In this document: positions 25,375 through 59,817 of the stretch, piece after piece
How positions within the stretch are numbered: the first letter of the stretch is position 1
Layout of the letters: each line of letters begins with the position of its first letter
DNA from: Methylacidimicrobium sp. B4
GTDB taxonomy: Bacteria; Verrucomicrobiota; Verrucomicrobiia; Methylacidiphilales; Methylacidiphilaceae
Assembly: GCF_017310545.1 (NCBI RefSeq)
Contig: NZ_CP066203.1
Span: 1,922,001 to 1,986,000, forward strand
DNA length: 64,000 bases
Direction of reading: 5' to 3'
Notes under the pieces: generated by a model
What the model was told of the DNA's origin: nothing
Seen by the model: only the letters and a program-made list of their open reading frames with translations
Database searches by the model: none
Translations under genes and position numbers: made by a program

Positions 25375-25691
25375 GTGGGTGGCTCCCCTCCGGGCTAACG
25401 GGCGACCCGCGTCTTTCCAGCGCCCGGGGGCGCGTCCTTCTAATAAGAGAGTCCGGCGGAAGAGGCAATCGGAATTGTGCGGGCTCGCCTTGCCGGTCGT
25501 GGGTCGTGCGATCAACCGGATCGAGGCGCGGTGGGTCGTGCCGACGGGGCAAAACGCGATCCCGGGTTCGAAGGCGATGGGAGGCCTTTGGCAGCCGATC
25601 CTCGCCCGCCCCGCCCTGCTAGCCGGCAATTGGGCTGCCTCGGCAGATCCCAGAGCCGCCATCTCTCCGAGCGGCCTCTGGATGAGGAGGC
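25375..25691. other. intergenic region without a recognisable gene
   Basis: About 317 bases separate the manC start from the stop of the coiled-coil gene. No domain, RNA or clear hairpin is visible. The manC promoter should lie in the part nearest 25375. Confidence 0.4.
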
Positions 25692-36223: not shown

Positions 36224-39200
36224 ATGTCGAATCCGCCAGGGAACGCGGGCGCCGCTCGCTCCGGGCCCCGGGAATGGGCTTCGGGCGCCGACCTCCTCGG
36301 GATCCTCCCCTGGTTTCCTCTTCCCGAAGAGCTGCCGATCTTCCTGGACGAACCGTTCGAGCGCGGGCTGCACATTCCCTTTGCCTGCTGGCTGATGGCC
36401 GCGTTGCGTCCCGTCCGGCTCGTCTACGTGGGGAAAGTGAGCAGCCTCTACCTGGCATTCTGCGAGGCGGCCAAGGCCGCAGGCATGGCGACACGCGCCT
36501 GGGCCGTAGATGCGGGAGGCGGCTCGGCGGCCTCCGGGAGCGTGCTGGAGCCCGAGGCCGATGAGGAGCTGCGGCGCTTCCACGACCAGAGCTATCGCGG
36601 CTTTTCGGAAGTCCTTTCCCCGGACGAGGCCCGGGCTCCTGTGGAATTCCCTGAGGGGAGCATCGACTTGCTCTGTCTCGGCGGCTCTGGGGCATACGAA
36701 ACCGTCCGGGAGGAGTTCCGGTGGTGGCTGCCGAAGCTGAGCCCGCGGGCGGTCGTCCTGCTCCCCGGCGCAACCGATTACCGGAGCCAGTGCGGCGCGT
36801 GGCGCTTTTGGAAGGAGGTGCGCTCGGCGTATCCGTCGGCTCTCTTCCCCCACGGCCGCGGGCTGGGGGTGCTCCTGAGCGGCCCGGAGCCGCACGACAC
36901 CTTGCGCGCGCTCGCCCACCTCCGGGAAGCGCAAGCCGCACGGGTGCGCTGGTTCTTTGCCCGGCAAGGGGAGCGGTGCATGCGCGGGATCCTCGAAGGA
37001 AGGATGTGGCGCACGCTCTCCTTGGATGCGGAGGCTCTGGTCCGGAAGATTGGGGATGACCCCCTGTGGCGCCTGCTTGGCCGGAGCCGGTTGCTCTCGC
37101 GAGGCGCGACCGAAGCGCTGGGGCAGGCTTCTCTGCTTGCCGGTGAGCTGCTGAACGACAGGCTTGCGCTGGCGGAAGGAGAGCCGAAGGCGCGGGCCTT
37201 GGAAGCCTCGGTCGAGCGCTTCCTCTCCTCAAGATCCTTCCTCGGCTTTTTGCGCTTGCGACGGTGGATCCCGCTTCCCCGTGCGGACAGGCGCCGGGAG
37301 AGCGTTGCGGATGCCCGGCGGGCGTGGCAGAGGAGTGTTCTGGTGGCGCAGCGCTACCGGGAGTTCCTGCGCGCCCGCAGCCCCGAGGAGGCCCCTCGGT
37401 GGCGGGACAGCCTGGGATACCCCTTGGAGCCCGGCGTGAGCAAGGAGCGGGTGCGCGAGCGCTATCAGGAGGAGCTCGAGCGGTTCCTCGCGGGCGGCGA
37501 CCGTCTTCTTGTGCCGTCGCCGCCCGAGCCCGAGCTCTCCGTCGTGCTTGTGCTCTACAATCAGGCCGAGCTGACCTATGCCTGCCTCCGCTCCCTTGCG
37601 ATCCACCTCTGCCCCTCGGCCGAAGTGGTCGTCGTCGACAACGCCTCCTCCGATCGGACGGGGGAGCTCCTGGAGCGGATCGAGGGGGCCCGGATCTTCC
37701 GCAACCGCGAGAACCTCCATTTTCTGCGTGCGGCCAACCAGGGTGCGGCGGCCGCGCGGGGGCGGCTTCTGCTCTTTCTGAACAGCGATGCCCAGATCCT
37801 CTCCGGCACGGTCGAAGCCGCTCGGCAGACGATCGAAGGCGACAGGGGTGCGGGAGCCGTCGTCGGACGGCTGGTCAACCTCGACGGGACCCTGCAGGAA
37901 GCGGGGGCGTTCTTCCTTCGGGATGGAATTCCCTGCCTCTACGGAGCCGGAGAGAACCCGCAGCAAGGGGCATATCTCTATCGGCGGGAAACCGACTACG
38001 GCTCCGGCGCCTTCCTCCTGACGCACACCCCGCTCTTTGGGGAGATGGGGGGCTTCGACGAATGCTTCTCCCCGGCCTACTGCGAGGACTCCGACTACTG
38101 CCTGCGCCTTTGGGAGAAGGGCTGGCGGGTCCTCTACGAGCCGGAGGCGGTCGTGCTCCACTGGCTGCACGGGAGCTCCGCGTCAGGCCAGGCCCGGGAA
38201 TGGGCGGAGCGGAACCGGACGACCTTCGCCAAGCGTCACGAGCTCTTTCTTCGCGATCGGCAGCCCCATCGGCCAGGCTTCCGTCCTTCCCTGGCCTTTC
38301 CCCGCCCGAAGATCCGCCTGCTCTACATCGACGACCGGGTGCCCCGGCCGGAGCTGGGGTCGGGATTCCCCCGGTCGAATGCGGTCCTGCGGGCACTGGC
38401 GGCCTGGGGAGCGCAGGTCACCCTCTTTCCCATGTCCGGGTGCTCGGAGGAGTGGGAGGAGATCTACTGGAGCGTGCCGCGGGAGGTGGAGGTGCTCCGT
38501 GACAGGGATGCCTCCAGCCTGCAAGCCTACCTGGAAGCTCGGGGTGGCGATTCCGACTGCGTCTGGGTCTCTCGGCCTCACAACATGGCCTCTTTCCTGG
38601 AGGCCGCCCAAGGCAGGGGCTTCCGTGGGCGGGCACGCCTCGTCTACGATGCCGAAGCCCTCTTTGCGTTCCGGGAGATCCGGGAAGCGGAAATCCTGGG
38701 CGGGAAGCCGCTGCCCAAGGAGGAACGATCCGCACAGATCAGCAAGGAGATCGCCTTGGCACGGAGCGCTGACCGGGTCGTGGCGGTATCGGAGGTCGAA
38801 GCCCGCGAGTTCCAGAGGCAGGGAATTGCGGATGTACGGGTGATCGGCCATGTCCTGGAGCTTGCCCCCACCGCTTCCCCCTACGAGCAGCGCCAGGATC
38901 TGCTCATCGTTGGGGCGGTGCATGCCTTATCCAGCCCCAACGGAGACGCCTTGGTCTGGTTTGCTCGCACGGTGCTGCCCCGGATCCGGGCGGGGTTTCC
39001 CGATGCCCCACCCCGGCTCGTGGTCGTCGGCTACGGCACCGATGCTCCGGAGCTTCGGCGCCTTCTGGGCCCGGAGGTCGTAACGGCGGGGACGGTCGCC
39101 GACCTGGCTCCGTATTACGAGCGGGCCCGGCTCTTCCTCGCTCCAACGAGGTTCGCCGCGGGCATTCCGCACAAGGCGCACGAGGCGGCGGCGCGCGGGG

Positions 39201-39454
39201 TCCCGATCGTGGCCAGCGACCTGATCGCCGGGCAGCTCGGTTGGATCACGGGGGAGGAGCTCGTGAGCGCCCCGGTGGACGATCCGGCTGCCTTCGCGGA
39301 GGCTTGCCTGAGGCTCTACCGCGATCGCTCGCTCTGGGAGCGGGTCCGGGCCGGCGCTCTGGCCGCCGTGGCTCGGGATTGCGATGCCCAGCGGTTTTCC
39401 CAAGGAATCCACGCGCTTCTGGAGGAGCTGGTGGGAGAGGGGAAGCGGCGGTAG
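36224..39454 (+). CDS. methyltransferase-like / GT2 / GT4 fusion glycosyltransferase
   Basis: A 1076-residue protein from ATG 36224, behind aggaaagaagg (an ATG at 36131 is an alternative start). Residues ~25-230 align with the class I methyltransferase domain of the larger protein at 48022-52332, but the SAM loop VEVGTTSGDSYLAFC is here 'VYVGKVSSLYLAFC', so it is probably inactive. Residues ~436-645 are a GT2 domain: 'LSVVLVLYNQAELTYACLRS', 'VVVVDNASSDRTGELLERIE', 'LLLFLNSDAQIL' and 'DYCLRLWEKGWRVLYEPEAV'. Residues ~697-1076 are GT4-like: 'IRLLYIDDRVPRPELGSGFP', 'VGAVHALSSPNGDALVWFAR' and 'PTRFAAGIPHKAHEAAARGV'. It likely adds two sugars in sequence to a surface glycan or protein. Confidence 0.87.
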   Translation: MSNPPGNAGAARSGPREWASGADLLGILPWFPLPEELPIFLDEPFERGLHIPFACWLMAALRPVRLVYVGKVSSLYLAFCEAAKAAGMATRAWAVDAGGGSAASGSVLEPEADEELRRFHDQSYRGFSEVLSPDEARAPVEFPEGSIDLLCLGGSGAYETVREEFRWWLPKLSPRAVVLLPGATDYRSQCGAWRFWKEVRSAYPSALFPHGRGLGVLLSGPEPHDTLRALAHLREAQAARVRWFFARQGERCMRGILEGRMWRTLSLDAEALVRKIGDDPLWRLLGRSRLLSRGATEALGQASLLAGELLNDRLALAEGEPKARALEASVERFLSSRSFLGFLRLRRWIPLPRADRRRESVADARRAWQRSVLVAQRYREFLRARSPEEAPRWRDSLGYPLEPGVSKERVRERYQEELERFLAGGDRLLVPSPPEPELSVVLVLYNQAELTYACLRSLAIHLCPSAEVVVVDNASSDRTGELLERIEGARIFRNRENLHFLRAANQGAAAARGRLLLFLNSDAQILSGTVEAARQTIEGDRGAGAVVGRLVNLDGTLQEAGAFFLRDGIPCLYGAGENPQQGAYLYRRETDYGSGAFLLTHTPLFGEMGGFDECFSPAYCEDSDYCLRLWEKGWRVLYEPEAVVLHWLHGSSASGQAREWAERNRTTFAKRHELFLRDRQPHRPGFRPSLAFPRPKIRLLYIDDRVPRPELGSGFPRSNAVLRALAAWGAQVTLFPMSGCSEEWEEIYWSVPREVEVLRDRDASSLQAYLEARGGDSDCVWVSRPHNMASFLEAAQGRGFRGRARLVYDAEALFAFREIREAEILGGKPLPKEERSAQISKEIALARSADRVVAVSEVEAREFQRQGIADVRVIGHVLELAPTASPYEQRQDLLIVGAVHALSSPNGDALVWFARTVLPRIRAGFPDAPPRLVVVGYGTDAPELRRLLGPEVVTAGTVADLAPYYERARLFLAPTRFAAGIPHKAHEAAARGVPIVASDLIAGQLGWITGEELVSAPVDDPAAFAEACLRLYRDRSLWERVRAGALAAVARDCDAQRFSQGIHALLEELVGEGKRR

Positions 39455-43475: not shown

Positions 43476-45740
43476 CTATCCTCGGAACAAGGCCTTGCGG
43501 ATGCTCCGCAGCTTCCACTCCCATCGCCGGAGGCGAAGCCCCAGGTGCCAGATCCGGGAGCGTTGGATCCGGGCAAGCTCGTCGCGCGCCTCTCGAAGTT
43601 CCTCCTTCTTCTGGTGGAGCTCCACCTCTTTCTGGTGGACCTCCGCCTCCTTCTGGTCAAGGAGCGTCTGAACCCGGTCCCGCTCGCGGCGGGCCGTCTC
43701 TCCTTCGCGCCGGAGGACGTCGGTTTGTCGAAAGTTTCCTTGCAGGAGCAACAAGCTTTCGGCAAGCCTCGGGGTGAGATGGGCGATGTAGGGGCTGGTA
43801 GCTGCGAGCCAGCTTGCAAAGTGGCTTGACGTGCTAAACATGCCCTCTGCGCTCCTCCGGTACCAGAAGAGGGGTTCCGGGACCACCTCGAGTTGGAGCC
43901 CCGCGAGGGCCGCTTTCGCAAAGAACTCCCAGTCCTCAAAAGCGACTCCGTGCTCCTCTCTAAAGCCGCCGATCGCCTCGAAGGCATCCCGCCGGACAAA
44001 AGCGTTGGCATCACCGAAGACGTTAAAAACGACACCCAGGGAGAGAGAAGGACCCAAGGGGGCGAAAATATAGTGGTTCCTCCCTTCGCCGCCGAATCGC
44101 TCCTTCCCCTCAAAGTCCCGCTGGGTGGCGGTCAGGATCGCCGCGCCCGTGTGCCGCGCGACCCGGACGAAGGTGGAGATTTCGTGGGGCTCGGCCAAGT
44201 TGTCGTCGTCCATGAAGAGGAGGAACTCGCCCTTGGCCTCCCGCGCGGCCCGGTTCCGGGCTGCTCCTAGATAGAGATTGGGCTGACGGATGATCCGCCA
44301 GTCGCGCTTCGCGAACTCGGGTTCGATCTGAGCGAGGAAGGCTGCGGCTTCCTGGGTGGCGCTGCCGTCGTCGACCAGGACGACCTCGAAGTTCGGGTAG
44401 TCCTGGGCCCGGAGCGAGTCGAGCGCCTGGGAGAGAAGGGCGGGGCGATCGTGGTGGACGAGACAGACGGTGACGCGCGGGAGATCGGCCCTTTCGGGAT
44501 TCTGATCCGAACCGTCCCGCGAGGAAAGCCCTTCCAGCCAGCGGGCCCACTCGTCCCGAACCGCGAACGGATCGACCGGGGGTTGCGGGACCGAAATCCC
44601 CCGGAGCCATGCGTCCCGGATCCTGGCGGCCAGCGCGTTGGGGTTGGCGGCAACGAGCCGCTCCCGCTCCGCTTCGGGCAGATCCTCCGCGATTCCTCGC
44701 GCTCCAAAATAGAGGAAGGGAATACCCAAGAAGGCGCACTCCCAGGCGGAAAAGGGGACGCCCTGTGCCGTCGAGCTGACTATGGCGAGGCGCTTGCCCT
44801 TCCCAAGGTAGCCGAGCGCCTCCGTGCGCTCCATGCGGTCTAACCATTCCCAGGCGAAGGGCCAGCGAGCCGCCCTCCGGGCGAGATAGTCTCTGCCTGG
44901 TTCGCTCTCGATTCTGCCAGAGGGGCCCAGGAAGACGATCCGGAGGTTCCCGTGGGGCGATGGCTCCAGTCGCTCAAGGGCGTCGCAAAGGAGCCGAAGC
45001 CTCTTGCGGGATTCGAGTGGGCCGAAGAGGACGATCTCCTCCGGGGTGAGGGTTTCCCGGTCTTGGCGCCGCAGAGCCACCAGAGACGCCGGGAAAGGAG
45101 GGGGGAGGACGTGGCAGGCTTCGGGGAAGCTCCAGCCATCGGCTTGGAGCGCCCGGAGCAGGGCGCCGCTCGTAGCGACGACGCCATCGGCGAGCCGGGC
45201 GCTCTCCCTCTCCAGGAAATCGGCGATGAGGATCTCGTAGTCTTCCACAAGCTCGGCATTGTCGAGGGTGCGGCGCAGGGTCGGGCTGTGGATCGCGACC
45301 CCCAGCGGAAGCTGCTCGAAGGCCAAGCCCTGGTGCTTGGCCAGGAGAGCGTAATAGCCCAACCCGCCCCGGTCGCAAAAGAGTACCCGGTCGAATTCGG
45401 TCGCATGCTCCCGGAGCCATCGGTAGGTCTTGTAGGCCCTAGACGAGGAGCGCGGCCATGCGAAACAGCGCTCGGAGGGTTCCGGCAACGGAGTCACGCG
45501 CACTCCTCGACGGGAGTAAAGTTCCACGAGCCGAGCGAGCTCGATGGCCTCGGGCGGTTGGTCACGGGCGAGCACGACGGTGACTTCCCGACCCGCCTCC
45601 GCCAGGGTTTCGGCCAAGGAGGAGACCAAGGAACCGAGGCCACTGCTCGGGCCGAATCCCGCAAGCTCCGTGGTCGCCAAGCAGATTCGGGGGCGAACCT
45701 TGCCGGGAGCGGGAGGGTTGGAGAGGGGAAGGGAGTCCAT
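43476..45740 (-). CDS. GT4 / GT2 fusion glycosyltransferase
   Basis: A 754-residue protein. Residues ~18-400 form a GT4-like, GT-B fold: 'RICLATTELAGFGPSSGLGS' (the N-terminal glycogen-synthase-like loop), 'EIVLFGPLESRKRLRLLCDA' and 'VPFSAWECAFLGIPFLYFGA'. Residues ~421-660 are a GT2 domain: 'VTVCLVHHDRPALLSQALDS', 'EVVLVDDGSATQEAAAF', 'GEFLLFMDDDNLAEPHEI' and 'GVAFEDWEFFAKAALAG'. The last ~85 residues form a charged coiled coil with 'EAEVHQKEVELHQKKEELRE'. No signal peptide, so it is cytoplasmic. Acceptor and donor are unknown. Confidence 0.87.
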   Translation of the reverse strand: MDSLPLSNPPAPGKVRPRICLATTELAGFGPSSGLGSLVSSLAETLAEAGREVTVVLARDQPPEAIELARLVELYSRRGVRVTPLPEPSERCFAWPRSSSRAYKTYRWLREHATEFDRVLFCDRGGLGYYALLAKHQGLAFEQLPLGVAIHSPTLRRTLDNAELVEDYEILIADFLERESARLADGVVATSGALLRALQADGWSFPEACHVLPPPFPASLVALRRQDRETLTPEEIVLFGPLESRKRLRLLCDALERLEPSPHGNLRIVFLGPSGRIESEPGRDYLARRAARWPFAWEWLDRMERTEALGYLGKGKRLAIVSSTAQGVPFSAWECAFLGIPFLYFGARGIAEDLPEAERERLVAANPNALAARIRDAWLRGISVPQPPVDPFAVRDEWARWLEGLSSRDGSDQNPERADLPRVTVCLVHHDRPALLSQALDSLRAQDYPNFEVVLVDDGSATQEAAAFLAQIEPEFAKRDWRIIRQPNLYLGAARNRAAREAKGEFLLFMDDDNLAEPHEISTFVRVARHTGAAILTATQRDFEGKERFGGEGRNHYIFAPLGPSLSLGVVFNVFGDANAFVRRDAFEAIGGFREEHGVAFEDWEFFAKAALAGLQLEVVPEPLFWYRRSAEGMFSTSSHFASWLAATSPYIAHLTPRLAESLLLLQGNFRQTDVLRREGETARRERDRVQTLLDQKEAEVHQKEVELHQKKEELREARDELARIQRSRIWHLGLRLRRWEWKLRSIRKALFRG

Positions 45741-47867: not shown

Positions 47868-48021
47868 CCCGCGGCGTGGGAGGGTTCGGTGCCCTCCGCG
47901 GGCCTTTTGCCCATGGAAGAAGTGAGGCGAACCAGGGGATCGGGTGCCACGAGGAGAGCCGAGACAAGACTTTCCTCTTGCGGTGCTACCGAGGCCAGAG
48001 CAGCATGAGCGGATTGTTCCG

Positions 48022-51000
48022 ATGAAATCCCGCGCCGTGCTCGTCTTAGGCATGCACCGCTGTGGGACCAGCGCCCTGACCCGCTGTCTTGGCCTTCTGG
48101 GTGTCGAGCTCGGTTCGGAGCTCATCGAGCCGGCTGCGGACAATCCGACCGGCTTTTGGGAGGACGGGAGGTTTCTCTCGATCAATCAGCGGTTGACCCA
48201 GCTCTTGGGAGAGGAGGGTCGCTGGTGGGAGTATCTTTTGCCTCCGGAAGTTCCCCTCTCTTCCTCTGGGGTCCGCTCCTTGATCGCCGAGGCGGTCGAA
48301 GAGATCGAGCGGAGGTTTGCCCCCTTCCCCCTGTGGGCCCTCAAGGATCCAAGGACCCTGCGGGTGCTTCCGTTTTGGGAGGAGGTGCTCCACCAAGCGG
48401 GGGTTGGGGGGGAGGTGGTCCTCGCCGTCCGCCATCCGCTCGCCTGCGCGCACTCGCTTTTGCGGCGCGACGGCATCCCAGAGGACCGCTCCCTGCTGCT
48501 CTGGACGAGCCAATATCTTGCGCATTGGCCGCGGCTTGCGGCGAGACCCTTTCTGGCGGTCGATTACGACCGGGTCCTGGAAGAGCCGGAGCGGGAGCTG
48601 CGACGGCTCTGCGGCCGGCTGGGATTGCCCTGGTCCAAGGCGGCGCTGGCGGAGGCGCGCACATTCCTCCAGCCCGAGCTCCGGCATAGCCGTTTTGTCC
48701 TCCGGGATCTGAGGGAGCGGCCCGATGTTCCCCCTCTGGTCGTGGAGACCTTCGAGGCGCTCGAGGAGCTTTGCGTCCATCCGGAGGCCAAGACGGCTTC
48801 CGCCCGGATGGCAGCGCTGCATGCCGAGTTTGGGCGAATGGTTCCGCTCCTGCGCACTCTCGATGGGGAGATGAGCGTCGCGCGCCGGTCGAGGCAGGAG
48901 CTCTCAGCCGTGCGTGGGCTCGTAGAGGCGCGCGACCGGGAGCTCGCCCAATTGCACGAGGAGCGGACGGAAGCGGGGAGCTGGCGATGGCTCGACCGGC
49001 TGCGGGGGGAGCGATCCTTTCGCGGGTGCCCCAAGCCGCGATGGGCTCCTCCGCTCGCGCTTCGCCAACGAAATGGTGAGAGGAGGTCGGCGGCGCAGGA
49101 GGTTGCGCACGGAGACGCGGGCGGGCGAAGGGAAATAGCTTCCGGCGGCGCTCTCTTGGGGCTCTTGCCCTGGCATCCCCTCGCAGCGGAACGCCCCCTC
49201 TTCCGTTCCGGGCTCTCGAGCTGGACGGAGCACATCCCCTTTGCGTTCTGGCTGGTGGCGGCTCTTCGGCCGAAGGTCGTGGTCGAGGTCGGGACGACGA
49301 GTGGGGATTCCTATCTGGCGTTCTGCCAGGCGATCGAGGCCCTTTCCCTGCCCGCTCGGGCTCATGCGGTCGATGCCTCGAACGAAGAGGAGGGGAGGTG
49401 TGGAGGTGGCTGTGATGAGGAGCTCAAGCGATGTCACGACGAGCGCTACGGCCGCTTCTCGCGCCTGCTCTGGATCCAATCTGATGGGGCCGTCTCCTTC
49501 TTCTCGGAGGGGAGCATCGACCTCCTCCATCTTGCCGGTTGCCCCCGCTACGAGGTGATGCGGGAGGAATTTTCCCGCTGGCGACCCAAGGTGAGCCGGG
49601 GCGGGGTCGTCCTGCTTCCCGGCGTGACGGAATGGCGCAACGGCTGCGGCGTCTGGCGGCTTTGGAACGAGCTGCGGGAGGTTTACCCCTCCTTTCTCTT
49701 TCCTCATGCCGGCGGACTCGGGGTGCTGCGGATCGGCCCGGAGGCTCCGGAGGCCATTCGGAGGCTGGTCACTCTTTCCGGCAGCCGGGCCGCGCGGGTG
49801 CGCCGGTGCTTTGAGCAGTTGGGGAAGGAGGTCGCCTCCGGATCGGCCGGAGGGGCGGAGCCGCGGGAGCGCGGCCGGGGCTCTTTGGAGCCAAAAAGCC
49901 CGCGGGACGAGACCCTCGCAGAGCCCGCATTGATTCTTGAGGCGATTCGAAGAGATCCAGCATGGCGGCTTCTCAGGGGGATGCGCATGCTCTCCCGGCG
50001 CTCGGGAGAGCTCTTGACCCGGGCGCATGCGCTCGCCCACGACTTGGCCGACGAAGGGCTGCCGAGCTCCAGCCGGTGGCAAGCGCTGGCGGCGCTCGAG
50101 CCGGCGGTGAAAAGCCTTGCGAGCTCTCGGAGCTTTCGGATCTTCGCCGACTTGGCAACGACCTCCCGCCGCTTCGTTCGCGGGGATCGGGAAGGGGTCG
50201 CGGCCCAGCTGCGGGACGCCTTGCGGATGAGCTTCCCGGTGCTCCTGCCCGCAGCGGGAGCCGGGGAAGTGCTTCCGTGGCGGGACAGCCTCGGCTTCCC
50301 CTTGGGGGTCGGCGGAGAAAAGGGGGCGGTGCTCGAGCGGTATCGGGCCGCCTTGGACGGGTTTCTACAGCGGGGCGATCGGCTAGCGCTGCCTTTGGCC
50401 GCGGAGCCGGAGATCTCGATCGTGCTGGTGCTCTTCAATCAAGCGGAGCTGACCTATGCCTGCCTGCGTTCCCTGGCGATCCATCTGGCCCTTCCGGTTG
50501 AGGTGATCCTGGTCGATAACGCCTCCACCGACCGGACGGGGGAGCTTCTCCAGCGGGTCAAGGGGGTCCGGCTGCTCCGCAACGGGGAAAACCTCCACTT
50601 TCTGCGGGCGGCCAATCAGGGAGCGGCTGCCGCCCGCGGGCGCCTGCTGCTCTTCTTGAACAACGATGCGCAAATTCTTCCGGAGACCGTCGAAGCCGCT
50701 CGGGAGGCGCTCGAAAGCGATCCCGCCGTCGGTGCGGTGGGAGGCCGGATCGTCAACCTCGAGGGGCGGCTTCAGGAAGCAGGATCGTTTGTCTGGGGCG
50801 ATGGGACGCCGCAAGGCTACGGGCGGGGGGATAGCCCGCTGCGGAGGAACTACCTCTTCCGGCGGGAGACCGATTACTGCTCCGGGGCCTTTCTCCTGAC
50901 CTATGCTGCGCTCTTCCGCGAGATGGGTGGATTGGACGAAGTCTTTGCCCCCGCCTATTTCGAAGAGGCGGACTACTGCCTCCGCCTTTGGGAGAGGGGC

Positions 51001-52332
51001 AGGCGAGTGCTCTATGAGCCAGAGGCGGTCGTCCTCCACTGGGAGTTTGGAAGCTCGGATGCCAAGAGCGCCTCGGGGCTGATGGAACGGAATCGCCAGC
51101 TTTTCGTGGAGCGTCATCGTTCCTTCCTGGAGGGGCGGCCACCCCCTCGGCCGGGTCCGCTTCTGGCGCCGATCGCTCCGCGCGCCCGGGTCCGGCTTCT
51201 CTATGTCGACGACCGGGTGCCCCGACCGGAGCTCGGGGCGGGCTATCCGCGGGCCAACGCCATCGTGCGGGAGCTGGTCGGCTGGGGCGCGCAGGTCACC
51301 CTCTTCCCGATGAGCGGAGCCTGGGAGGATTGGGAGGAGATCTACTGGAATCTGCCTCGGGAGGTCGAGGTGCTTCGGGGGATGGACGCCTCTGTCCTCC
51401 AATCCCACCTGGAAGCTCGGGCCGGCGCGTACGACCTGGCCTGGATTTCCCGACCCTACAATATGGCCCGGCTTTCCGCGATCGACGGAAGGAAGAGGCT
51501 TCTGGCCGGGTCGCGGCTGGTGTACGATGCCGAGGCCGTCTTCGCGCTTCGGGAGATTCGGCAAGCCGAGATCGTGCAGGGAAGAGCTGTGCCGGGAGCG
51601 GAGGAGCGGCGGCGGATCGGCCAGGAAATTGCCTGGGCTCGGAGCGCCGACCGGGTCGTGGCGGTGTCGGAGGAGGAGGCCCAGGAGTTCCGGCGGCGGG
51701 GCATCGACCAAGTTCGGGTAATTGGCCATGCGCTCCCGCCCGCGCCGACGAGAGCCTCCTTCGCGGAGCGGAAGGATTTCCTCTTGGTGGGAGCGGTTCG
51801 CGACTGGCAGGGCCCCAACGGCGATGCCCTCCTCTGGTTTGCCCAGAAGGTGTTCCCGAAGGTTCGGGAAGGATTGGCGGCGGCTCCCCCCAGGCTCGTC
51901 GTGGTCGGCGACGGGAGCGATTCCCCGGAGCTGCTGCGTCGTCTCGGTCCGGGGACGGTGGGGATCGGGACCGTGGCCGACTTGACTCCCTACTACGAGC
52001 GGGCTCGCGTCTTCGTGGCGCCGACCCGGTTTGCCGCGGGCATCCCGATGAAGGCGCACGAGGCGGCCGCACGGGGGGTACCGATGGTCGCGAGCTCGCT
52101 CATCGCTCATCAGCTCGGCTGGAGGACGGGGGAGGAGCTCCTGAGCGCCCCGGTGGAGGACGAGGAGGCCTTTGCCGCAGCGTGCCGGAACCTCTACACC
52201 GATCCCCTGCTCTGGGAGCGGGTGCGGGCCGGGGCGCTTGCTTCCGTAACTCGGGATTGCGATCCCAAGCGGTTCAGGGAAGCCATTCAGGCGCTGCTCG
52301 ACGAGCTGGCCGCACCGAAGCTGCCGCGCTAA
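48022..52332 (+). CDS. four-domain sulfotransferase / methyltransferase / GT2 / GT4 fusion
   Basis: A 1436-residue protein starting at ATG 48022. Residues 1-~290 are a sulfotransferase almost copied from the preceding gene ('VLVLGMHRCGTSALTRCLGL', 'WALKDPRTLRVLPFWEEVLH'). After a coiled coil, residues ~376-590 are a methyltransferase domain with an intact SAM loop ('VVVEVGTTSGDSYLAFCQAI'). Residues ~797-1010 are GT2 ('ISIVLVLFNQAELTYACLRS', 'LLLFLNNDAQILPETVEAAR', 'DYCLRLWERGRRVLYEPEAV'). Residues ~1057-1436 are GT4-like ('VRLLYVDDRVPRPELGAGYP', 'PTRFAAGIPMKAHEAAARGV'). The last three domains match the protein at 36224-39454, so this is that protein plus a sulfotransferase fused in front. It could add, methylate and sulfate sugars on one chain. 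Confidence 0.87.
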   Translation: MKSRAVLVLGMHRCGTSALTRCLGLLGVELGSELIEPAADNPTGFWEDGRFLSINQRLTQLLGEEGRWWEYLLPPEVPLSSSGVRSLIAEAVEEIERRFAPFPLWALKDPRTLRVLPFWEEVLHQAGVGGEVVLAVRHPLACAHSLLRRDGIPEDRSLLLWTSQYLAHWPRLAARPFLAVDYDRVLEEPERELRRLCGRLGLPWSKAALAEARTFLQPELRHSRFVLRDLRERPDVPPLVVETFEALEELCVHPEAKTASARMAALHAEFGRMVPLLRTLDGEMSVARRSRQELSAVRGLVEARDRELAQLHEERTEAGSWRWLDRLRGERSFRGCPKPRWAPPLALRQRNGERRSAAQEVAHGDAGGRREIASGGALLGLLPWHPLAAERPLFRSGLSSWTEHIPFAFWLVAALRPKVVVEVGTTSGDSYLAFCQAIEALSLPARAHAVDASNEEEGRCGGGCDEELKRCHDERYGRFSRLLWIQSDGAVSFFSEGSIDLLHLAGCPRYEVMREEFSRWRPKVSRGGVVLLPGVTEWRNGCGVWRLWNELREVYPSFLFPHAGGLGVLRIGPEAPEAIRRLVTLSGSRAARVRRCFEQLGKEVASGSAGGAEPRERGRGSLEPKSPRDETLAEPALILEAIRRDPAWRLLRGMRMLSRRSGELLTRAHALAHDLADEGLPSSSRWQALAALEPAVKSLASSRSFRIFADLATTSRRFVRGDREGVAAQLRDALRMSFPVLLPAAGAGEVLPWRDSLGFPLGVGGEKGAVLERYRAALDGFLQRGDRLALPLAAEPEISIVLVLFNQAELTYACLRSLAIHLALPVEVILVDNASTDRTGELLQRVKGVRLLRNGENLHFLRAANQGAAAARGRLLLFLNNDAQILPETVEAAREALESDPAVGAVGGRIVNLEGRLQEAGSFVWGDGTPQGYGRGDSPLRRNYLFRRETDYCSGAFLLTYAALFREMGGLDEVFAPAYFEEADYCLRLWERGRRVLYEPEAVVLHWEFGSSDAKSASGLMERNRQLFVERHRSFLEGRPPPRPGPLLAPIAPRARVRLLYVDDRVPRPELGAGYPRANAIVRELVGWGAQVTLFPMSGAWEDWEEIYWNLPREVEVLRGMDASVLQSHLEARAGAYDLAWISRPYNMARLSAIDGRKRLLAGSRLVYDAEAVFALREIRQAEIVQGRAVPGAEERRRIGQEIAWARSADRVVAVSEEEAQEFRRRGIDQVRVIGHALPPAPTRASFAERKDFLLVGAVRDWQGPNGDALLWFAQKVFPKVREGLAAAPPRLVVVGDGSDSPELLRRLGPGTVGIGTVADLTPYYERARVFVAPTRFAAGIPMKAHEAAARGVPMVASSLIAHQLGWRTGEELLSAPVEDEEAFAAACRNLYTDPLLWERVRAGALASVTRDCDPKRFREAIQALLDELAAPKLPR

Positions 52333-52380: not shown

Positions 52381-54441
52381 TTATCGGACAACCTTCTCCG
52401 CTTCTTGCGGCCTGCCCTTCGCTCCGGCTCCCCCTTCCTGCTCCAGCCAGAAGAGCACCTCCTGGACCACGGCCTGCGGCTCGATTCCGGTCAAGCAGGC
52501 CTTGGCGTGCGGACAGTGGGTTGCATAACAGGGGGAACAGGAGATCGGAATGTGGAGCAGGCTCACCCGGTTGCCGACCGGATGGGCCATCCTCCAGTCG
52601 ACGACTCCTGAAAAAACGATCACGGTGGGAATCCCGAGTGCTGCGGCGATGTGGCCCAATCCCGAATCGTTTCCGACGAAGACCTGAGCAGAGGCGAGGA
52701 GGCTCGGGATCTCTTCCAAGGAAACCTGCCCGACCAGGTTCCGACAGCGCGAAGGGGAAAGGTTGCGGAGGAGGGCTTCGGATGCCTCGCGTTCCGCGCG
52801 GCCACCAACGAGCAGGAGGGGGCAATCGTGTTCGGTCGTCAAGAGGGTGCAGAGGCGGGAGAAATGCTCGAGTGGCCATGCCCGGAGCGGGTCTCCGCAG
52901 CCGGGAGCAACGGCGATGAGCCGGGGCATGCCCCCGACTGCGGCCGTCCCTCGCAGAAAATCCGGCAGGCAAGAGCAGGGGTCCTGGAGGGCCGCGCGAA
53001 TGGCTTCGATGAGGAGCAGTGCGGAGGAGCGACGATGGGTTGGTGCGTGTTCGTTCCCGGACATCTCTCCGTTCGGGAGTGCGATATCGAGGACGACGTC
53101 GGCCCCGGCGGCGGCAAAGCCCGCGCGAAGCTTGGCCGGGACATGGGAGAGCAGGAAGCGGGTATCGGGGTCGGTCCGCAGGTCAACGGCCAGGTCGAAC
53201 TCACCCAGCGAGCGGGTGAGCGTTGCAAGCTGCTCTCCCGCCGAGAGGTTGGGCCCCCGCCACTCTCCGGAGCGCTCGGGGAAGAAGGCGAACGGGATGA
53301 TCTGCTGGAAGAAGCCGAGCCTCTGTGCCAGGGGAACGTTCCACGGGCCGCAGAGCAGGGTAATTTCCGCATTTGGCCAGGAGCGGCGGAGCATCTCGCT
53401 GGCTGCTATCCGGTTGAGGAAGTCCCCGATGTGATCGAGCTGGAGGACCACGATCCGCCGGATCTCCTCCACGCGCCCGCGAAGTCCTTGGATTCCCGAG
53501 AGGCGGAGGACCTCGAGGGGGCCGCAGCTTGGCTCGGGCGGCGCGGGTCTCGCCTCCGTTCCGTTGGTAAAGGTCTGGATCGATCCCTCCGCCGTCTCTT
53601 CCCGGCGTGCGAAGGTCGTGCGCAGCGCCCGCTCGATTCGGCGCAGCGGCTCGCGCTCCCGTTTCCGATGCAGCCGGTCGACTTCCCGTTGGAGTTGCTC
53701 GTTATACCGCTGAAGCTGCTTGACCTGATCTCGGAGCGTGCGGAGCTCCTCTACCTGCGAATATGCCGTGAACTCGTCGAAGACGTTGGGCGGAAGAGCG
53801 AGCCGTTCCCGGAGGGCGCTTCGCTCCTTCGCCACGTAGAACCGGTTGAGGCCGTCGAAGTAGGCAAAGAGATAATCCTTGGCCAGCAGGAGAGGCTCCC
53901 ACTCCTCGTGGGAAGGTTCCTGGCTGTTCGGCTTCGTGGCTTCCACAAGGATGATCCAGGGACGAACGACCTGGAAGGCAAACCCCCGCAATGCGTCGGC
54001 TTCCGCTCCCTCGCAGTCGATCTTGAGGAAGTGGATCGTGTCGATCCGGTGCTCCTCGACGATCTCGTCGAGCGTCCGGACGACAACGCTTACGGGCTGA
54101 AAAACGGCGCCGAGTCGCTTCCGGTGCTCAAGAGCATACTCCTCGCGAACCGTGCTCAAGCCGGATCCGGAGATCTGCCAGAACGGGAGCTTCCCGCGCC
54201 GGGCTCCGGCCGCCACCGGGAGATTGATGTCGCGCGGCCTTGCGGTCGCCAGCTTTTGCCAAAAGTGAGGGTCGGGCTCGAGGTTGATCCCCCTCCACCC
54301 ATTGTCGTAGAAATGCTTGGTGACCGAGTCGGTTACCGGGTCTCCGGCCCCGACGTCAACGTAGAAGCCGAGCGGAAGGTCGGCAAGCGCCCTTCGGAGG
54401 ACGACGTCCTCGAAGTTCTCCGCGTAGGAAATCCAGGCCAT
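52381..54441 (-). CDS. FkbM methyltransferase / GT9 glycosyltransferase fusion
   Basis: A 686-residue protein starting at ATG 54441 behind gggaggagagg. Residues 1-210 are an FkbM methyltransferase with intact motifs: 'FYVDVGAGDPVTDSVTKHFY', 'GWRGINLEPDPHFWQKLA' and 'IHFLKIDCEGAEADALRGFA'. A short coiled coil ('QVEELRTLRDQVKQLQRYNE') leads to a GT9 domain from ~329: 'RIVVLQLDHIGDFLNRIAAS', 'LIAVAPGCGDPLRAWPLEHF' and 'VFVGNDSGLGHIAAALGIPT'. It is the counterpart of the protein at 34134-36125, whose methyltransferase half is damaged. It is convergent with the four-domain fusion gene, 48 bases away. Likely adds and O-methylates a sugar. Confidence 0.88.
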   Translation of the reverse strand: MAWISYAENFEDVVLRRALADLPLGFYVDVGAGDPVTDSVTKHFYDNGWRGINLEPDPHFWQKLATARPRDINLPVAAGARRGKLPFWQISGSGLSTVREEYALEHRKRLGAVFQPVSVVVRTLDEIVEEHRIDTIHFLKIDCEGAEADALRGFAFQVVRPWIILVEATKPNSQEPSHEEWEPLLLAKDYLFAYFDGLNRFYVAKERSALRERLALPPNVFDEFTAYSQVEELRTLRDQVKQLQRYNEQLQREVDRLHRKREREPLRRIERALRTTFARREETAEGSIQTFTNGTEARPAPPEPSCGPLEVLRLSGIQGLRGRVEEIRRIVVLQLDHIGDFLNRIAASEMLRRSWPNAEITLLCGPWNVPLAQRLGFFQQIIPFAFFPERSGEWRGPNLSAGEQLATLTRSLGEFDLAVDLRTDPDTRFLLSHVPAKLRAGFAAAGADVVLDIALPNGEMSGNEHAPTHRRSSALLLIEAIRAALQDPCSCLPDFLRGTAAVGGMPRLIAVAPGCGDPLRAWPLEHFSRLCTLLTTEHDCPLLLVGGRAEREASEALLRNLSPSRCRNLVGQVSLEEIPSLLASAQVFVGNDSGLGHIAAALGIPTVIVFSGVVDWRMAHPVGNRVSLLHIPISCSPCYATHCPHAKACLTGIEPQAVVQEVLFWLEQEGGAGAKGRPQEAEKVVR

Positions 54442-54670: not shown

Positions 54671-55489
54671 CTACGGCAACTGCGTCACGCTCTTCGAACG
54701 AGCGACCGGTTGCGCTCTTCGGACGGGAAGGGAGGCGGCCTGGGGGGAGGAGCGGAGCTGGGCGCCGACGCGGGTGATGTTCTGAAGGACCGTGGGGTTG
54801 TTCGGCTGGAGGAGGAAGGCCTTGCTGTACGCCTGCAGCGCCTCCCGGCGGCGGCCGAGCTTCTCGCAAGCGACTCCCAGGTTGTTCCACGCCTCGACAT
54901 TGCCGGGCTCCAGTGCGAGCGCCTTCCGGTAGGCCGTGACCGCTTCCGGGAAACGGTTGAGCTCGGCGGAAACGACGCCGAGGTTGAACCAGGCGATGCC
55001 GCTTGGTGCCAAGCGGCAGATCTTTTCAAATGCCGGGAGCGCCTGGGCGGGGTGGTTGAGATGCTCTTCTTCGGTCCCGAGAGCGAACCAGGCGGCCGGA
55101 TCGGTCGGGCTCAGCTTCACGGAGCGCCGGTAGGCCGCGAGGGCACGCTTGCGATATCCGGCGGCGGCGTAGGCACGGCCGAGCCGCAGCCAGGCATCGC
55201 CTCTGCGGCTCTCGATCGAGGCCGCCTTGCGGAGAGGCGGGATGGCCTCCGTGGGCCTGCCGGCGAGAAGGAGGGCTTCGCCCAGCCGACGCCAGCCTTG
55301 CGCCGAGCGTGGGGTCGCTCGCGCCTCCTCACGGAGCAGCGCGAGCTTCTGCTCGAGGGCACGGTTTGCGCTGGAGGGGGCCGGGGAGGGGGAGCCCGAA
55401 CTCCGCTCGAGGGGGAGCAGGGGAGCGAAGAGGGCCAGAAGCAGCGGCAGGCTCCGCCGGTAGGCGGGGGCCAAGAGGCGGCGGTCCAT
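54671..55489 (-). CDS. TPR-repeat protein, probably exported
   Basis: A 272-residue protein starting at ATG 55489. The N-terminus ('RRSLPLLLALFAPLLPLERS') looks like a signal peptide or membrane anchor. From about residue 45 onward there are five to six tetratricopeptide repeats, such as 'AQGWRRLGEALLLAGRPTEA', 'GDAWLRLGRAYAAAGYRKRA' and 'VEAWNNLGVACEKLGRRREA'. The C-terminal ~35 residues are low complexity. TPR proteins assemble partners; beside the TpsB gene it might help secretion or glycan assembly, but this is only positional. It is divergent from tpsB, with 171 bases between. Confidence 0.85.
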   Translation of the reverse strand: MDRRLLAPAYRRSLPLLLALFAPLLPLERSSGSPSPAPSSANRALEQKLALLREEARATPRSAQGWRRLGEALLLAGRPTEAIPPLRKAASIESRRGDAWLRLGRAYAAAGYRKRALAAYRRSVKLSPTDPAAWFALGTEEEHLNHPAQALPAFEKICRLAPSGIAWFNLGVVSAELNRFPEAVTAYRKALALEPGNVEAWNNLGVACEKLGRRREALQAYSKAFLLQPNNPTVLQNITRVGAQLRSSPQAASLPVRRAQPVARSKSVTQLP

Positions 55490-55660
55490 GTTCTCCAGAG
55501 TATGCGAGCAGCGGGTGCCCCTGCCAGAAAGAAAGGAGTCGCGGGCCCGGGAAGCGGGGGGGCATCCCGAGTGGCTCGATTCCCAAAAGGGGAAGCGATC
55601 CAAGGGGTTTTTGGCTTGCCAGGAAGCACGGGAAGCGATGATCTTTAAGCACTTTTTCTT

Positions 55661-57298
55661 ATGATCTTGCTGCTGCCGCTCCTCCTCGCGCTCCTGGAGG
55701 AGCCGACGGCCTTCTATTCCGCCCCGGAGAAGCAGGAGGTCGTCCCCTATGATCAGGCCTCCCTGGCGGCAAAGCCGGTCGTGGTGGAAAGTGGGGGGAT
55801 CCGCTACGTCGTGACCGGGAATACGCTCCTCTCCGAGGGAAAGATCGCCGACACGCTTCGGGGTGCCAAGGGTCCGGAGGATGCGGTGAGCCGGCTCAAA
55901 GCGGTCTACCAAAGGGCGGGATACTTCTTGGTGACGATCCGGGCGGTCGGTAGGGAGAAGCGGGTCGAGCTCGAGGTGATCGAAGGAAAGATCACGGAGG
56001 CCCGGGTCGTTCCCTCCCTGCGCTGGTTCTATGGAGGGCTGACCAACCGCCCCTCGGTGAAGACCAGCGATGTGATCCGGCGCACGGCCAATGCGGAAGC
56101 CTATGCCGCCCGGCAGCAGGAGCGGCCGAAGGTGAACTTCGAGCCCGGTACCGATTTTGCGAGCTCGGTGATGGAGGTGGAGACCCGGCCGATCGAAAGC
56201 TTTGCTCCGAACCCGCTCAACCAGGCGAACCCGTGGAATGCTTCGGTGGGCTTCGGAAATTACGGGAACCGTTTCTCCGCCCGCTACATGAGCGATGCGG
56301 CGGTCGCCTATCGTCCGGGATATGGCTTGGAGCTCACCGGCGGATTCACCAACGGCTGGGACGGCCTCAATCCGTACACCGAGGGCGGGATGTTCCAGAT
56401 GGAGAACGGCGGGCTTTCCTGGGCGACCCCGTGGGGAGTCTACGGTGTCACCTTCGCGAACATGCAGTCGGCCTTTGGGGAGGTAACAGCGCCGCTCTAC
56501 CCCGAGGTCGCGATGCAGAGCTGGCAGATCTACGGGCAGCAGACGGTCTACGCGAGCGAAAGCTTCCGCTGGACGATGAACGAGCGACTCACCTCGATGA
56601 ACTTCATTGAGGATGTCTTCCAGGGTGCGATCCGGCTCCTCTCCCAGGATTACGGGACGGCCCAGCTCGGCACCACGCTGAGCCAGAGCTTCCGGACCCT
56701 GGGGCTTCCCGCGCAGGTCACCGGAACCGTCTACGGCGTTCGGGGAACGCAGCTCGGGGCCTTCTCCGGCGTGCAAGGCGCGCCGCTGGAGGGACCAGGC
56801 GTGCCGACGGCCAACTTCACCTACTACCGGGGCAACTTCAGCTATGCGCAGACGCTGCCCGAGGGGATGCAGCTGGTGCTGACGGGCTATGGGCAGATCT
56901 CGGAAAATTCGCTGCCGATCATGGAGTATTTTGTCCTGGGCGGGATGGGGAACCTGGCCGCGTGGTATCCGGGTGTCCTCTACGGAGATACGGGCTACAT
57001 CACCCGCGCCGCCCTTTCCGCCCCCCCCGTCGAGGCGTGGGGATTCCGGATCGCGGGGCAATTCTTCGCAGAGACCGGCGGGTCCCGCTTCACCTATACG
57101 CCCGGTCCCGGCCCGGCTTGGCACTACCTGACCGACGTCGGGCTCGGGCTCGACATGGTCCACCGCTATGGAACGACGATCAGCGCCATGGCGGCCCTGC
57201 CGCTGGACGCTTCGATGATCGGACCCACGGACAACCCGCACGGCTACTTTGCGGGCGGACGGGTAGCGGTGCTTTTTGTCTTGCGGCAGAACTTTTAG
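55661..57298 (+). CDS. TpsB-type outer-membrane transporter (ShlB/FhaC family)
   Basis: A 545-residue Omp85-superfamily pore for two-partner secretion. A short hydrophobic N-terminus ('MILLLPLLLALLEEPTAFYS') acts as signal peptide. Residues ~45-115 form a POTRA domain ('GIRYVVTGNTLLSEGKIADT', 'LKAVYQRAGYFLVTIRAV', 'ELEVIEGKI'), followed by a second, shorter POTRA-like part. From ~180 to the end it is a beta-barrel, closing with 'VAVLFVLRQNF'; the terminal Phe is typical of barrel proteins. It probably exports the two TpsA proteins 22-28 kb upstream. It leads an operon with a PPIase and a lipoprotein. A nine-codon frame (ATG 55638) overlaps its start as ATGA. Confidence 0.86.
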   Translation: MILLLPLLLALLEEPTAFYSAPEKQEVVPYDQASLAAKPVVVESGGIRYVVTGNTLLSEGKIADTLRGAKGPEDAVSRLKAVYQRAGYFLVTIRAVGREKRVELEVIEGKITEARVVPSLRWFYGGLTNRPSVKTSDVIRRTANAEAYAARQQERPKVNFEPGTDFASSVMEVETRPIESFAPNPLNQANPWNASVGFGNYGNRFSARYMSDAAVAYRPGYGLELTGGFTNGWDGLNPYTEGGMFQMENGGLSWATPWGVYGVTFANMQSAFGEVTAPLYPEVAMQSWQIYGQQTVYASESFRWTMNERLTSMNFIEDVFQGAIRLLSQDYGTAQLGTTLSQSFRTLGLPAQVTGTVYGVRGTQLGAFSGVQGAPLEGPGVPTANFTYYRGNFSYAQTLPEGMQLVLTGYGQISENSLPIMEYFVLGGMGNLAAWYPGVLYGDTGYITRAALSAPPVEAWGFRIAGQFFAETGGSRFTYTPGPGPAWHYLTDVGLGLDMVHRYGTTISAMAALPLDASMIGPTDNPHGYFAGGRVAVLFVLRQNF

Positions 57299-57316
57299 CT
57301 GATTCAATGGAGGGGC

Positions 57317-58204
57317 ATGGCGAGCCGTGTGACGATCTCTGGGAAGGGGAGAATGGTTTCGCAGGGGCGAAGCCGCGGGCGCATTCGTGTCCTGCTCCTG
57401 GTTCTGCTGAGCGCGTCGGGCTTGGCCCTTGCGGCGCGAGCCCAATCGAGCGATCCGGTCGTCGCCTCCGTCAACGGGGTCGAGATCCGGCAGTCGGAGG
57501 TGAGGAAGGCGTTGTCGGGTGCGGGTATCGCGAACCCGACCCCCGAAGCCGAGCGCAGCGCCATCAATGCGCTGATCCAGCAGGAGCTTCTCGTTCAGGA
57601 GGCTTATAAATCGGAGCTCGAGAAGTCGGCGGAGGTGAAGGCGGCGGTGGCCGAGGCCACGCGAAAGATTCTGGCGAACGCAGCACTCCAGCAGCAGCTG
57701 GGGCGGAGGAAGCTCGCTGACGAGGAGTTGCGCCGGCGTTATGAGCGCGCGATCGCGACGCTTCCCCGGCGGGAATATCGCCTGCGCCACATTGTGACGG
57801 AGACCCGGAGCGAGGCGGCCGTGGTGTTGGACCGGCTGCAGAAGGGGGTCAACTTTTCGATTCTGGCCCGCGGTTCCCTCGACAAGGCGACCGCCGATCG
57901 AGGCGGAGAGGTCGGATGGCAGAGTGCCCAAACCCTTCCGACCTCGGCACTCGCCTTGGTCGAGAAGCTCCAGCTCGGGCAGATCGGGGGTCCCATCCTC
58001 TCGGGGGCCGGCTGGGAGGTCATCCAGCTCCTGGAATTGCGTCCGGTGAAGGTGCCGAGCTTTGCCGAGGCCAAGCCCCAGCTTCAGCAGCAGCTCCAGC
58101 AGGAGACGGCGCAGCAGCTCGTGCAGCAGCTCGCGGCTGGCGCGCAGATCGAGGCATTCCTGGCGCCGCCTCCCGGGGAGCCCGTTGCGGCAACCGCTCA
58201 CTGA
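57317..58204 (+). CDS. SurA/PpiC-type periplasmic peptidyl-prolyl isomerase
   Basis: A 295-residue protein starting at ATG 57317 behind ggagggg, 18 bases after tpsB. A signal peptide ends near 'SGLALAARAQ'. Residues ~45-150 are the SurA-like chaperone helix region ('PVVASVNGVEIRQSEVRKAL' is the typical N-terminal SurA strand). Residues ~150-240 are a parvulin domain ('YRLRHIVTETRSEAAVVLDR', 'DRGGEVGWQSAQTLPTSALA' and 'GGPILSGAGWEVIQLLE'). A Gln-rich helix follows. Position in the tpsB operon suggests it keeps the unfolded TpsA passengers or the barrel competent in the periplasm. Confidence 0.88.
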   Translation: MASRVTISGKGRMVSQGRSRGRIRVLLLVLLSASGLALAARAQSSDPVVASVNGVEIRQSEVRKALSGAGIANPTPEAERSAINALIQQELLVQEAYKSELEKSAEVKAAVAEATRKILANAALQQQLGRRKLADEELRRRYERAIATLPRREYRLRHIVTETRSEAAVVLDRLQKGVNFSILARGSLDKATADRGGEVGWQSAQTLPTSALALVEKLQLGQIGGPILSGAGWEVIQLLELRPVKVPSFAEAKPQLQQQLQQETAQQLVQQLAAGAQIEAFLAPPPGEPVAATAH

Positions 58205-58210
58205 GGGAAC

Positions 58211-58651
58211 GTGGCGGATCCAGCGCAGGCCAGCGGTGGGGGAAGATGGCTTCGCGGGGGGGCTGCGGGGCTGCTTGCGATCCTGCTCTGCGTAGCTGGC
58301 TGCGCCCATCAGGATGCGGTACAGGTCCGGCATCTGACGACCGCCCGGTATCTTCCCTCCCGTTACGTTCAGGTCTACCGGAAGGCGCCCGAGGGCCCGT
58401 ATGAGAAGATCGCGGTGCTCGAAGCGAGCGGCCAGCCGGAAACCCCGAAGAGCCAGCTCCTGGGATCGATCCTGGAGAAGGCGCGGGAGCTGGGTGCGGA
58501 GGCGGTGATCGTGGAGGACAAGAGCCAGCCGATCGGCAATCCCTTGGTCATGAATCCGACCGGAGGAATGTACACGGTCAATCCCGGGATGCAGATGATC
58601 CCCCGTCTTCGGGCCACGGCGATCCGGTTTGCGACGGAACCCGCTTCCTGA
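58211..58651 (+). CDS. predicted lipoprotein
   Basis: A 146-residue protein with a GTG start seven bases after the PPIase stop, with gaggga upstream. The signal sequence 'GLLAILLCVAGCAHQ' has a lipobox (VAGC), giving a lipid-anchored Cys at about residue 31. The mature part ('RYLPSRYVQVYRKAPEGPYE', 'LLGSILEKARELGAEAVIVE') resembles the small YbjQ/DUF4156-like envelope lipoproteins in which a strand-helix-strand fold ends in 'GAEAVIV'. The function is unknown. It is the third gene of the tpsB operon. Confidence 0.8.
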   Translation: MADPAQASGGGRWLRGGAAGLLAILLCVAGCAHQDAVQVRHLTTARYLPSRYVQVYRKAPEGPYEKIAVLEASGQPETPKSQLLGSILEKARELGAEAVIVEDKSQPIGNPLVMNPTGGMYTVNPGMQMIPRLRATAIRFATEPAS

Positions 58652-58711: not shown

Positions 58712-59746
58712 CTATCGGGATGGGGAATCGCCAGAGGCGCAACCGGCCCGGGGAGGGAAGACCCCCTTCCGCGCGGTTCGCAAGGCCCGCTCCAACGACC
58801 GAAGGAGACGACGGACTCGGCACGCCCGGCGGAATCCCAGGAAGCGGACAAGCCAGCGGACGTGGGGCTCCGCCGCTTCCACAAGCGCCCGTTCGCTCCA
58901 CAGGTCCAGCGAATGCGCCTCTTGGGAGAGCGGTTCCACAAGCTCCGGGGCGAGCCGGTCGAGCACCCGGAGGATCCGGGCATATTCTCCCTGGGCCGCC
59001 GCCTGGCGCGGTCGGGTCCATTCGCCCAGAAGTTGCAGCTCCCGGGTGGCGTCCTGGACCATCTGAGCGCGCCAGCGGAGGGCTTCGGGGATGTTCGAGG
59101 AGGTGAGGCTCTCGAGGTGGCAGACCCGGTAGACGGCACCGGGGGTGGGGGTATAGCGGAAGCGCAAGCCCGCTCGGATGGCCCGCCAGTAGATCTGATA
59201 ATCGTCGTAGTAGTCGGTGGGAAGGTTCTTCCAGCCGCCCAGGGCGAGAAGCTTCGCCCGGCGCCAGAGGAGGGCGCCGTTTTGGGGAAACTGCGAGGAG
59301 AGCCAGGTGCGGGGAAGATCCTGGGGATCGTCGATCGGTTGGAGAAGGCGGGATGCGACACGTCCCTGGCTCCACCGCTCGAGGAGGTAGGGGGAAAAGA
59401 GGACGTCCGCATCGGCCAGGCTTCCGGCCTCGGCGATCTGGGTGGCGATCTTTTCTGGCAAGAGATAGTCGTCGTGATCGAGCCACTGGATCCACTCCCC
59501 CGAGGCCTCCTGGAGGAGCTCCTGGCGGGCGAGGCTGCTCCGGCCGGTCCGGGCTTGGAGGAGCCGGATGCGGTCCCCGAAGGCGGCGATTCGGTCCGGG
59601 GTCCCATCGCTGGAGCCGTCGTCGAGGACGAGGATCTCCGTCTGGGGCCCGCTTTGGGCCCGGGCGCTCTCGATCGCCGGGACGATCCAGGGCCCCGCGT
59701 TGTAGGCGGGGATGGCGATCGTCACGAGGGGGGAGGGGGGGGTCAT
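58712..59746 (-). CDS. GT2 family glycosyltransferase
   Basis: A 344-residue cytoplasmic GT-A enzyme starting at ATG 59746. It shows the GT2 signature 'LVTIAIPAYNAGPWIVPAIE', 'EILVLDDGSSDGTPDRIAAF', and the D-x-D-containing 'GEWIQWLDHDDYLLPEKIAT'. Later it has 'WLSSQFPQNGALLWRRAKLL' and 'DYQIYWRAIRAGLRFRYTPT'. The last ~100 residues are basic and helical. It is divergent from the triple-GT2 gene, and its first 100 residues resemble the N-terminal part of that protein. Convergent with the lipoprotein gene, 60 bases apart. Confidence 0.88.
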   Translation of the reverse strand: MTPPSPLVTIAIPAYNAGPWIVPAIESARAQSGPQTEILVLDDGSSDGTPDRIAAFGDRIRLLQARTGRSSLARQELLQEASGEWIQWLDHDDYLLPEKIATQIAEAGSLADADVLFSPYLLERWSQGRVASRLLQPIDDPQDLPRTWLSSQFPQNGALLWRRAKLLALGGWKNLPTDYYDDYQIYWRAIRAGLRFRYTPTPGAVYRVCHLESLTSSNIPEALRWRAQMVQDATRELQLLGEWTRPRQAAAQGEYARILRVLDRLAPELVEPLSQEAHSLDLWSERALVEAAEPHVRWLVRFLGFRRACRVRRLLRSLERALRTARKGVFPPRAGCASGDSPSR

Positions 59747-59817
59747 CCAAGGAGCCGTTCGGGCGGATGGAAAAGGTTAGCGCCGCGAACCAGATTCCGG
59801 CAATAACTCCTTCCAGC

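Follow-up and report, generated by a model that had tools for sequence, protein, structure and literature searches.

A candidate sulfotransferase–methyltransferase–GT2–GT4 fusion in one Methylacidimicrobium genome, with a probably inactive methyltransferase domain

Chains that carry several transferase domains for one repeat unit are known from WbbB, the multi-domain O-antigen glycosyltransferase of Aeromonas salmonicida; there, the sulfotransferase lies outside that chain, in a separate open reading frame (PMC4483657). For the methyltransferase part of the protein considered here, the closest described enzymes are the metal-dependent sugar O-methyltransferases MycE and MeT1. According to two papers, D275, H278 and D304 of MycE act as metal ligands and base (PMC10117803; PMC9275233); an intact relative of our methyltransferase domain has the same fold and the same D..H...D spacing, while the domain itself has lost these catalytic residues. 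Nearer at hand, the three-domain proteins of Methylacidimicrobium (for example L074:9524-12772 of M. tartarophylax) have methyltransferase (MT), GT2 and GT4 in the order of the fusion and adjoin a sulfotransferase (ST) gene; they differ in being separate from the ST and in their MT catalytic residues, which are intact except for H508 in two of five genomes. Finally, one-frame chains in other Verrucomicrobiota (L118 in G019; L103, L104 and L105 in G021, G163 and G192) resemble the fusion in having an N-terminal Sulfotransfer_3-like domain followed by the GT2-GT4 pair. They differ in having no MT between the two, and their ST exceeds the Pfam cut-off in L118 only.

Domains and paralogues of the fused frame

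We analysed a 64,000-nucleotide stretch of the genome of the acidophilic, methane-consuming bacterium Methylacidimicrobium sp. B4 (the window), in which all four domains are encoded in one stop-free frame (Table 1). The genome carrying this frame is a single contig of 2.37 Mb. Pfam recognizes Sulfotransfer_3 at residues 6-205 (42.1 bits against a cut-off of 27), Methyltransf_24 at 421-532 (43 against 26.3), Glycos_transf_2 at 799-954 (80.2 against 23.3) and Glyco_trans_1_4 at 1252-1394 (75.5 against 27). The window also contains other glycan genes, which fits a glycan biosynthesis region. Besides these, an ShlB/FhaC-like secretion protein and a SurA-like PPIase (55661-58204) adjoin glycosyltransferases, possibly pointing to a secreted glycosylated protein; a long minus-strand open reading frame (54671-58333), whose final portion carries TPR repeats, overlaps the opposite-strand ShlB and PPIase frames.

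Table 1 Features of the fused frame, its paralogues and the neighbouring glycan genes in the window
Feature	Position	Strand	Basis
Fused ORF, ST - coil - linker - decayed MT - GT2 - GT4, 1436 aa	48022..52332	+	one stop-free frame
ST domain (Sulfotransfer_3), aa 1-290	48022..48891	+	Pfam and conserved positions
Coil, formerly C-terminal in a free ST, aa 291-330	48892..49011	+	comparison with free ST
Linker, former stop/spacer/start region, aa 331-372	49012..49137	+	alignment to G002 and codon usage
AGG where relative G002 has the ATG start of its MT gene	49081..49083	+	junction alignment
Methyltransf_24-like domain, probably inactive, aa 391-640	49192..49941	+	Pfam, conserved positions, rate test, model
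Codons 505, 508, 533, 534 (A, P, P, G; family D, H, H, D)	49534..49623	+	
GT2 domain, aa 790-1050	50389..51171	+	Pfam and conserved positions
GT4 domain, aa 1055-1430	51184..52311	+	Pfam and conserved positions
Free ST paralogue, 391 aa	46692..47867	+	open frame with Sulfotransfer_3
Spacer 3' of free ST; first part resembles the G002 ST-MT spacer	47868..48021	+	
Second MT-GT2-GT4 protein, 1076 aa, degenerate MT	36224..39454	+	open frame, Pfam, conserved positions
GT9	34134-36125		
GT4-GT2	43476-45740	minus	
FkbM-MT with GT9	52381-54441	minus	
Double GT2	59353-62262		
Mannose-1-phosphate guanylyltransferase/isomerase-like gene	23938-25695	minus	

The genome with the fusion retains a second ST copy, which is encoded directly upstream. 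An earlier note, made from the letters alone, had described the two sulfotransferases as nearly the same: the match stands and is far beyond chance, but at 81% protein identity the wording was somewhat strong. Its observation that the DNA match extends to before the ATG holds (83% over 1058 columns, about 90 nt of them upstream), and the remainder of the fusion does match the second three-domain protein of the window, at 57% identity. The fusion point, which the note placed where the coiled coil of the free protein ends, lies beyond the entire ST C-terminus: the last common motif, WRWxDRLRG..ERSFR, is present in both ST copies, and the coil is longer in the free ST than in the fused one.

Judged by conserved positions, the ST, GT2 and GT4 domains of the fusion look intact. 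Specifically, none of the 14 positions conserved across 15 outside rows is lost in the fused ST; they include the 5' loop GxS, KDPR and RxP, which we take to be PAPS-site motifs. GT2 and GT4 keep 25/25 and 31/32 positions, respectively, each conserved in 32 outside rows. An APS kinase, the source of PAPS, is encoded in all seven genus genomes. Searched by sequence against solved structures, the free ST gave only a weak match, to a protein-tyrosine sulfotransferase (E 0.65), so Pfam is the basis for calling it a sulfotransferase. This conservation bears on whether the fusion is merely a useless by-product of a degenerating gene cluster. The MT is decayed in both copies of the window genome, and G002 has a truncated MT-GT2-GT4 gene with a fragmented GT4, as well as a second ST that lacks 3 of the 14 conserved positions; yet in the window gene the three other domains keep nearly all of their conserved positions, GT4 evolves at no excess rate and the 1436-codon frame is intact, and we consider such a decay unlikely. 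As a separate observation, G004 carries a broken second GT4 copy downstream of its MT-GT2-GT4 gene (L072:11918-13126).

Junction and origin of the fusion

The junction was compared across seven Methylacidimicrobium genomes, including that of the window. In G001, G004, G005 and G006, the ST terminates at a stop of its own and is followed on the same strand by an MT-GT2-GT4 gene with its own ATG; in G002, the ST with its own stop precedes an ATG-started but shortened MT, and in G003 the two genes lie on different contigs. Both genes are complete on one contig in four relatives, and in four of four they are separate neighbours. Against G002, which has the closest spacer, the junction alignment reveals that the window lacks the stop codon of the ST together with about 85 nt of the spacer, and that the old MT start ATG reads AGG, while the DNA downstream is almost identical. 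The origin by fusion proposed in the earlier note is thereby supported: in five genus relatives an ST with its own stop lies beside the MT gene, which is a complete MT-GT2-GT4 in four of them and truncated in G002, and the window junction can be read as the loss of the spacer and of the old start codon. The codon usage of the linker is not coding-like, which fits newly coding DNA that was formerly spacer. In addition, the DNA that follows the free ST starts out similar to the spacer between ST and MT in G002, which fits a tandem ST duplication that predates the fusion. On this sequence comparison, the fusion is probably young, with the second ST copy kept in the genome.

In G001, a single in-frame stop codon (L068:18478-18480) splits the ST from MT-GT2-GT4, which share the same frame. 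A candidate second fusion in this genome, an open frame of 1488 aa, was rejected because it continues across a stop codon.

Close to the junction, six consecutive G residues (49004-49009) offer an opportunity for a base-calling error, and with the genes being separate in relatives it could be argued that a sequence or assembly error conceals two genes with a broken frame between them. We regard this as quite improbable. A broken frame would leave MT-GT2-GT4 without an ATG, the old start being AGG: no in-frame ATG, GTG or TTG occurs at residues 312-378, and the first start codon past codon 311 is the TTG at codon 379. Moreover, the difference from G002 comprises the 85-nt loss and substitutions rather than one indel.

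State of the methyltransferase domain

To define the MT family, we used 28 rows from outside the genus, each of at least 180 residues and taken from the loci found, in which 42 columns are conserved in at least 90%. The MT keeps 41 of these positions in G001, G003 and G004 and 40 in G005 and G006, compared with 33 in the window fusion, 30 in G002 and 26 in the second three-domain protein of the window. The family rows themselves keep 30 to 42, so the 33 positions of the fusion are not outlying by themselves, and it is the site that matters. In the fused MT, D505, H508, H533 and D534 are all lost together, and with them the residues that by spacing would be the two metal-binding aspartates and the catalytic histidine (D505, H508 and D534 replaced by A, P and G); G453 is missing as well, and the DxWxGD loop has lost its W and its G. 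The H508 position varies in G005 and G006 too, while the other lost catalytic residues are kept in the relatives. The SAM-binding motif I positions E422, G424 and G428 are kept in the fused MT. The MT of the second three-domain protein is degenerate including SAM motif I, with Y at the E422 position.

The family spacing of D-x-x-H ... D (3 and 29) equals that of D275, H278 and D304 in MycE. MycE was not among the structure matches listed, so the catalytic mapping rests on this spacing and on the two papers rather than on a direct alignment to MycE. A sequence search of solved structures with the MT of the intact relative returned no match. The structural model of the intact MT from G004 (pLDDT 86.7) has as its best Foldseek match MeT1 of Mycobacterium hassiacum (E 2.2e-11), and also matches many O-methyltransferases. 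The window MT was modelled with a pLDDT of 80 and a secondary structure similar to that of the intact relative, which, together with the MeT1 match, points to a class I SAM methyltransferase fold; its decayed loop (model residues 79-87) has a pLDDT below 50.

In a relative-rate test with G001 as outgroup and G004, G005 and G006 as comparators, unique changes numbered 50, 41 and 46 in the window MT and 13, 19 and 17 in the respective comparators (p 3e-6, 0.006 and 3e-4). The same test gave no excess for the middle part or GT4, and for GT2 a weak excess against one of the three comparators (25 versus 11, p 0.029). The fused MT is therefore probably dead, as far as its sequence tells, and methylation by the fused chain is unlikely; the dead-looking motifs may leave room for SAM binding or another activity.

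The earlier note had imagined a single chain adding two sugars, methylating and sulfating them; the methylation is not supported, the metal and base residues of the MT being lost, while ST, GT2 and GT4 look intact. That all four activities (sulfation, methylation and two glycosyl transfers) work in one chain is very unlikely: every domain exceeds its Pfam cut-off and SAM motif I is kept, but the MT site with its catalytic residues, loop W and G453 is lost, fewer MT positions are kept than in genus members with intact genes, and the decayed loop is poorly modelled. Since the MT looks dead, the protein is better read as adding sugars and sulfate than as a four-step assembly line.

Distribution and proposed role of the fusion

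Among the loci collected, ST-MT-GT2-GT4 in one frame occurs only in the window genome. It is absent elsewhere in the 13 family genomes searched with the ST-MT half, and in the 42 loci from a scan of 84,980 genomes whose reach is limited to close relatives; cyanobacteria were covered only through the loci of that scan. We further surveyed 387 genomes of the phylum, with two candidates scored in each, and 18 stretches from them, so that the numbers given for other ST fusions are minimum values. ST-GT2-GT4 chains in one frame were found in at least four Verrucomicrobiota genomes, where the Pfam score of the ST is above the cut-off in G019, below it in G163 and G192, and not reported in G021. An ST with two GT2 domains in one frame is present in G002 (just below the Pfam cut-off) and G038 (below), and an ST with GT4 in G078 (below). 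The G002 protein (L069:7526-10354) contains the second ST of that genome, the one short of three conserved positions, and is encoded after the shortened MT.

The four-domain order had been put forward as unusual and undescribed. In its favour, it was found in a single genome, and a full-text search of openly licensed PMC papers found no described example of such a fusion; against it, ST-GT2-GT4 chains exist without the MT in other Verrucomicrobiota, so the novelty is limited to the order of the four domains, and an ST at the head of this GT pair is a recurrent arrangement. We thus regard the protein as a new combination within a known type of multi-domain glycan enzyme.

The reading we favour, and hold to be somewhat probable, is a genuine and recent fusion in one genome, in which a dead MT serves as spacer and ST, GT2 and GT4 work as a glycosylating and sulfating chain. 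In the proposed course of events, ST and MT-GT2-GT4 would have been same-strand neighbour genes, as in the genus, and the ST would have been duplicated in the window genome; the downstream ST copy would then have lost its stop and most of the spacer with the frame kept, and the old ATG would have changed to AGG. With the old start lost, the glycosyltransferases would now be translated as the C-terminal portion of a chain that begins with the ST. The MT may have been decayed or decaying already at the time of fusion, and is probably only a folded spacer. GT2 and GT4 would extend a surface or secreted glycan by two sugars, the predicted product at its predicted cell location, and the tethered ST would sulfate that product with PAPS; ST activity, sugar donors and acceptor all belong to this predicted working mode. 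It is conceivable, though doubtful, that the lineage is replacing methyl by sulfate as the modification of its glycan, the MT dying and staying as a spacer while the duplicated ST, joined to the same chain, would modify those nascent sugars instead.

The favoured fusion illustrates how multi-domain glycan enzymes may arise: neighbour genes, probably of one pathway, merge through the loss of a stop and spacer, and one inherited domain dies. It also cautions that function read from domain names alone is overstated. Relatives in which the genes are intact and unfused provide a ready comparison for asking whether sulfate has replaced methyl on a glycan of these acidophiles.
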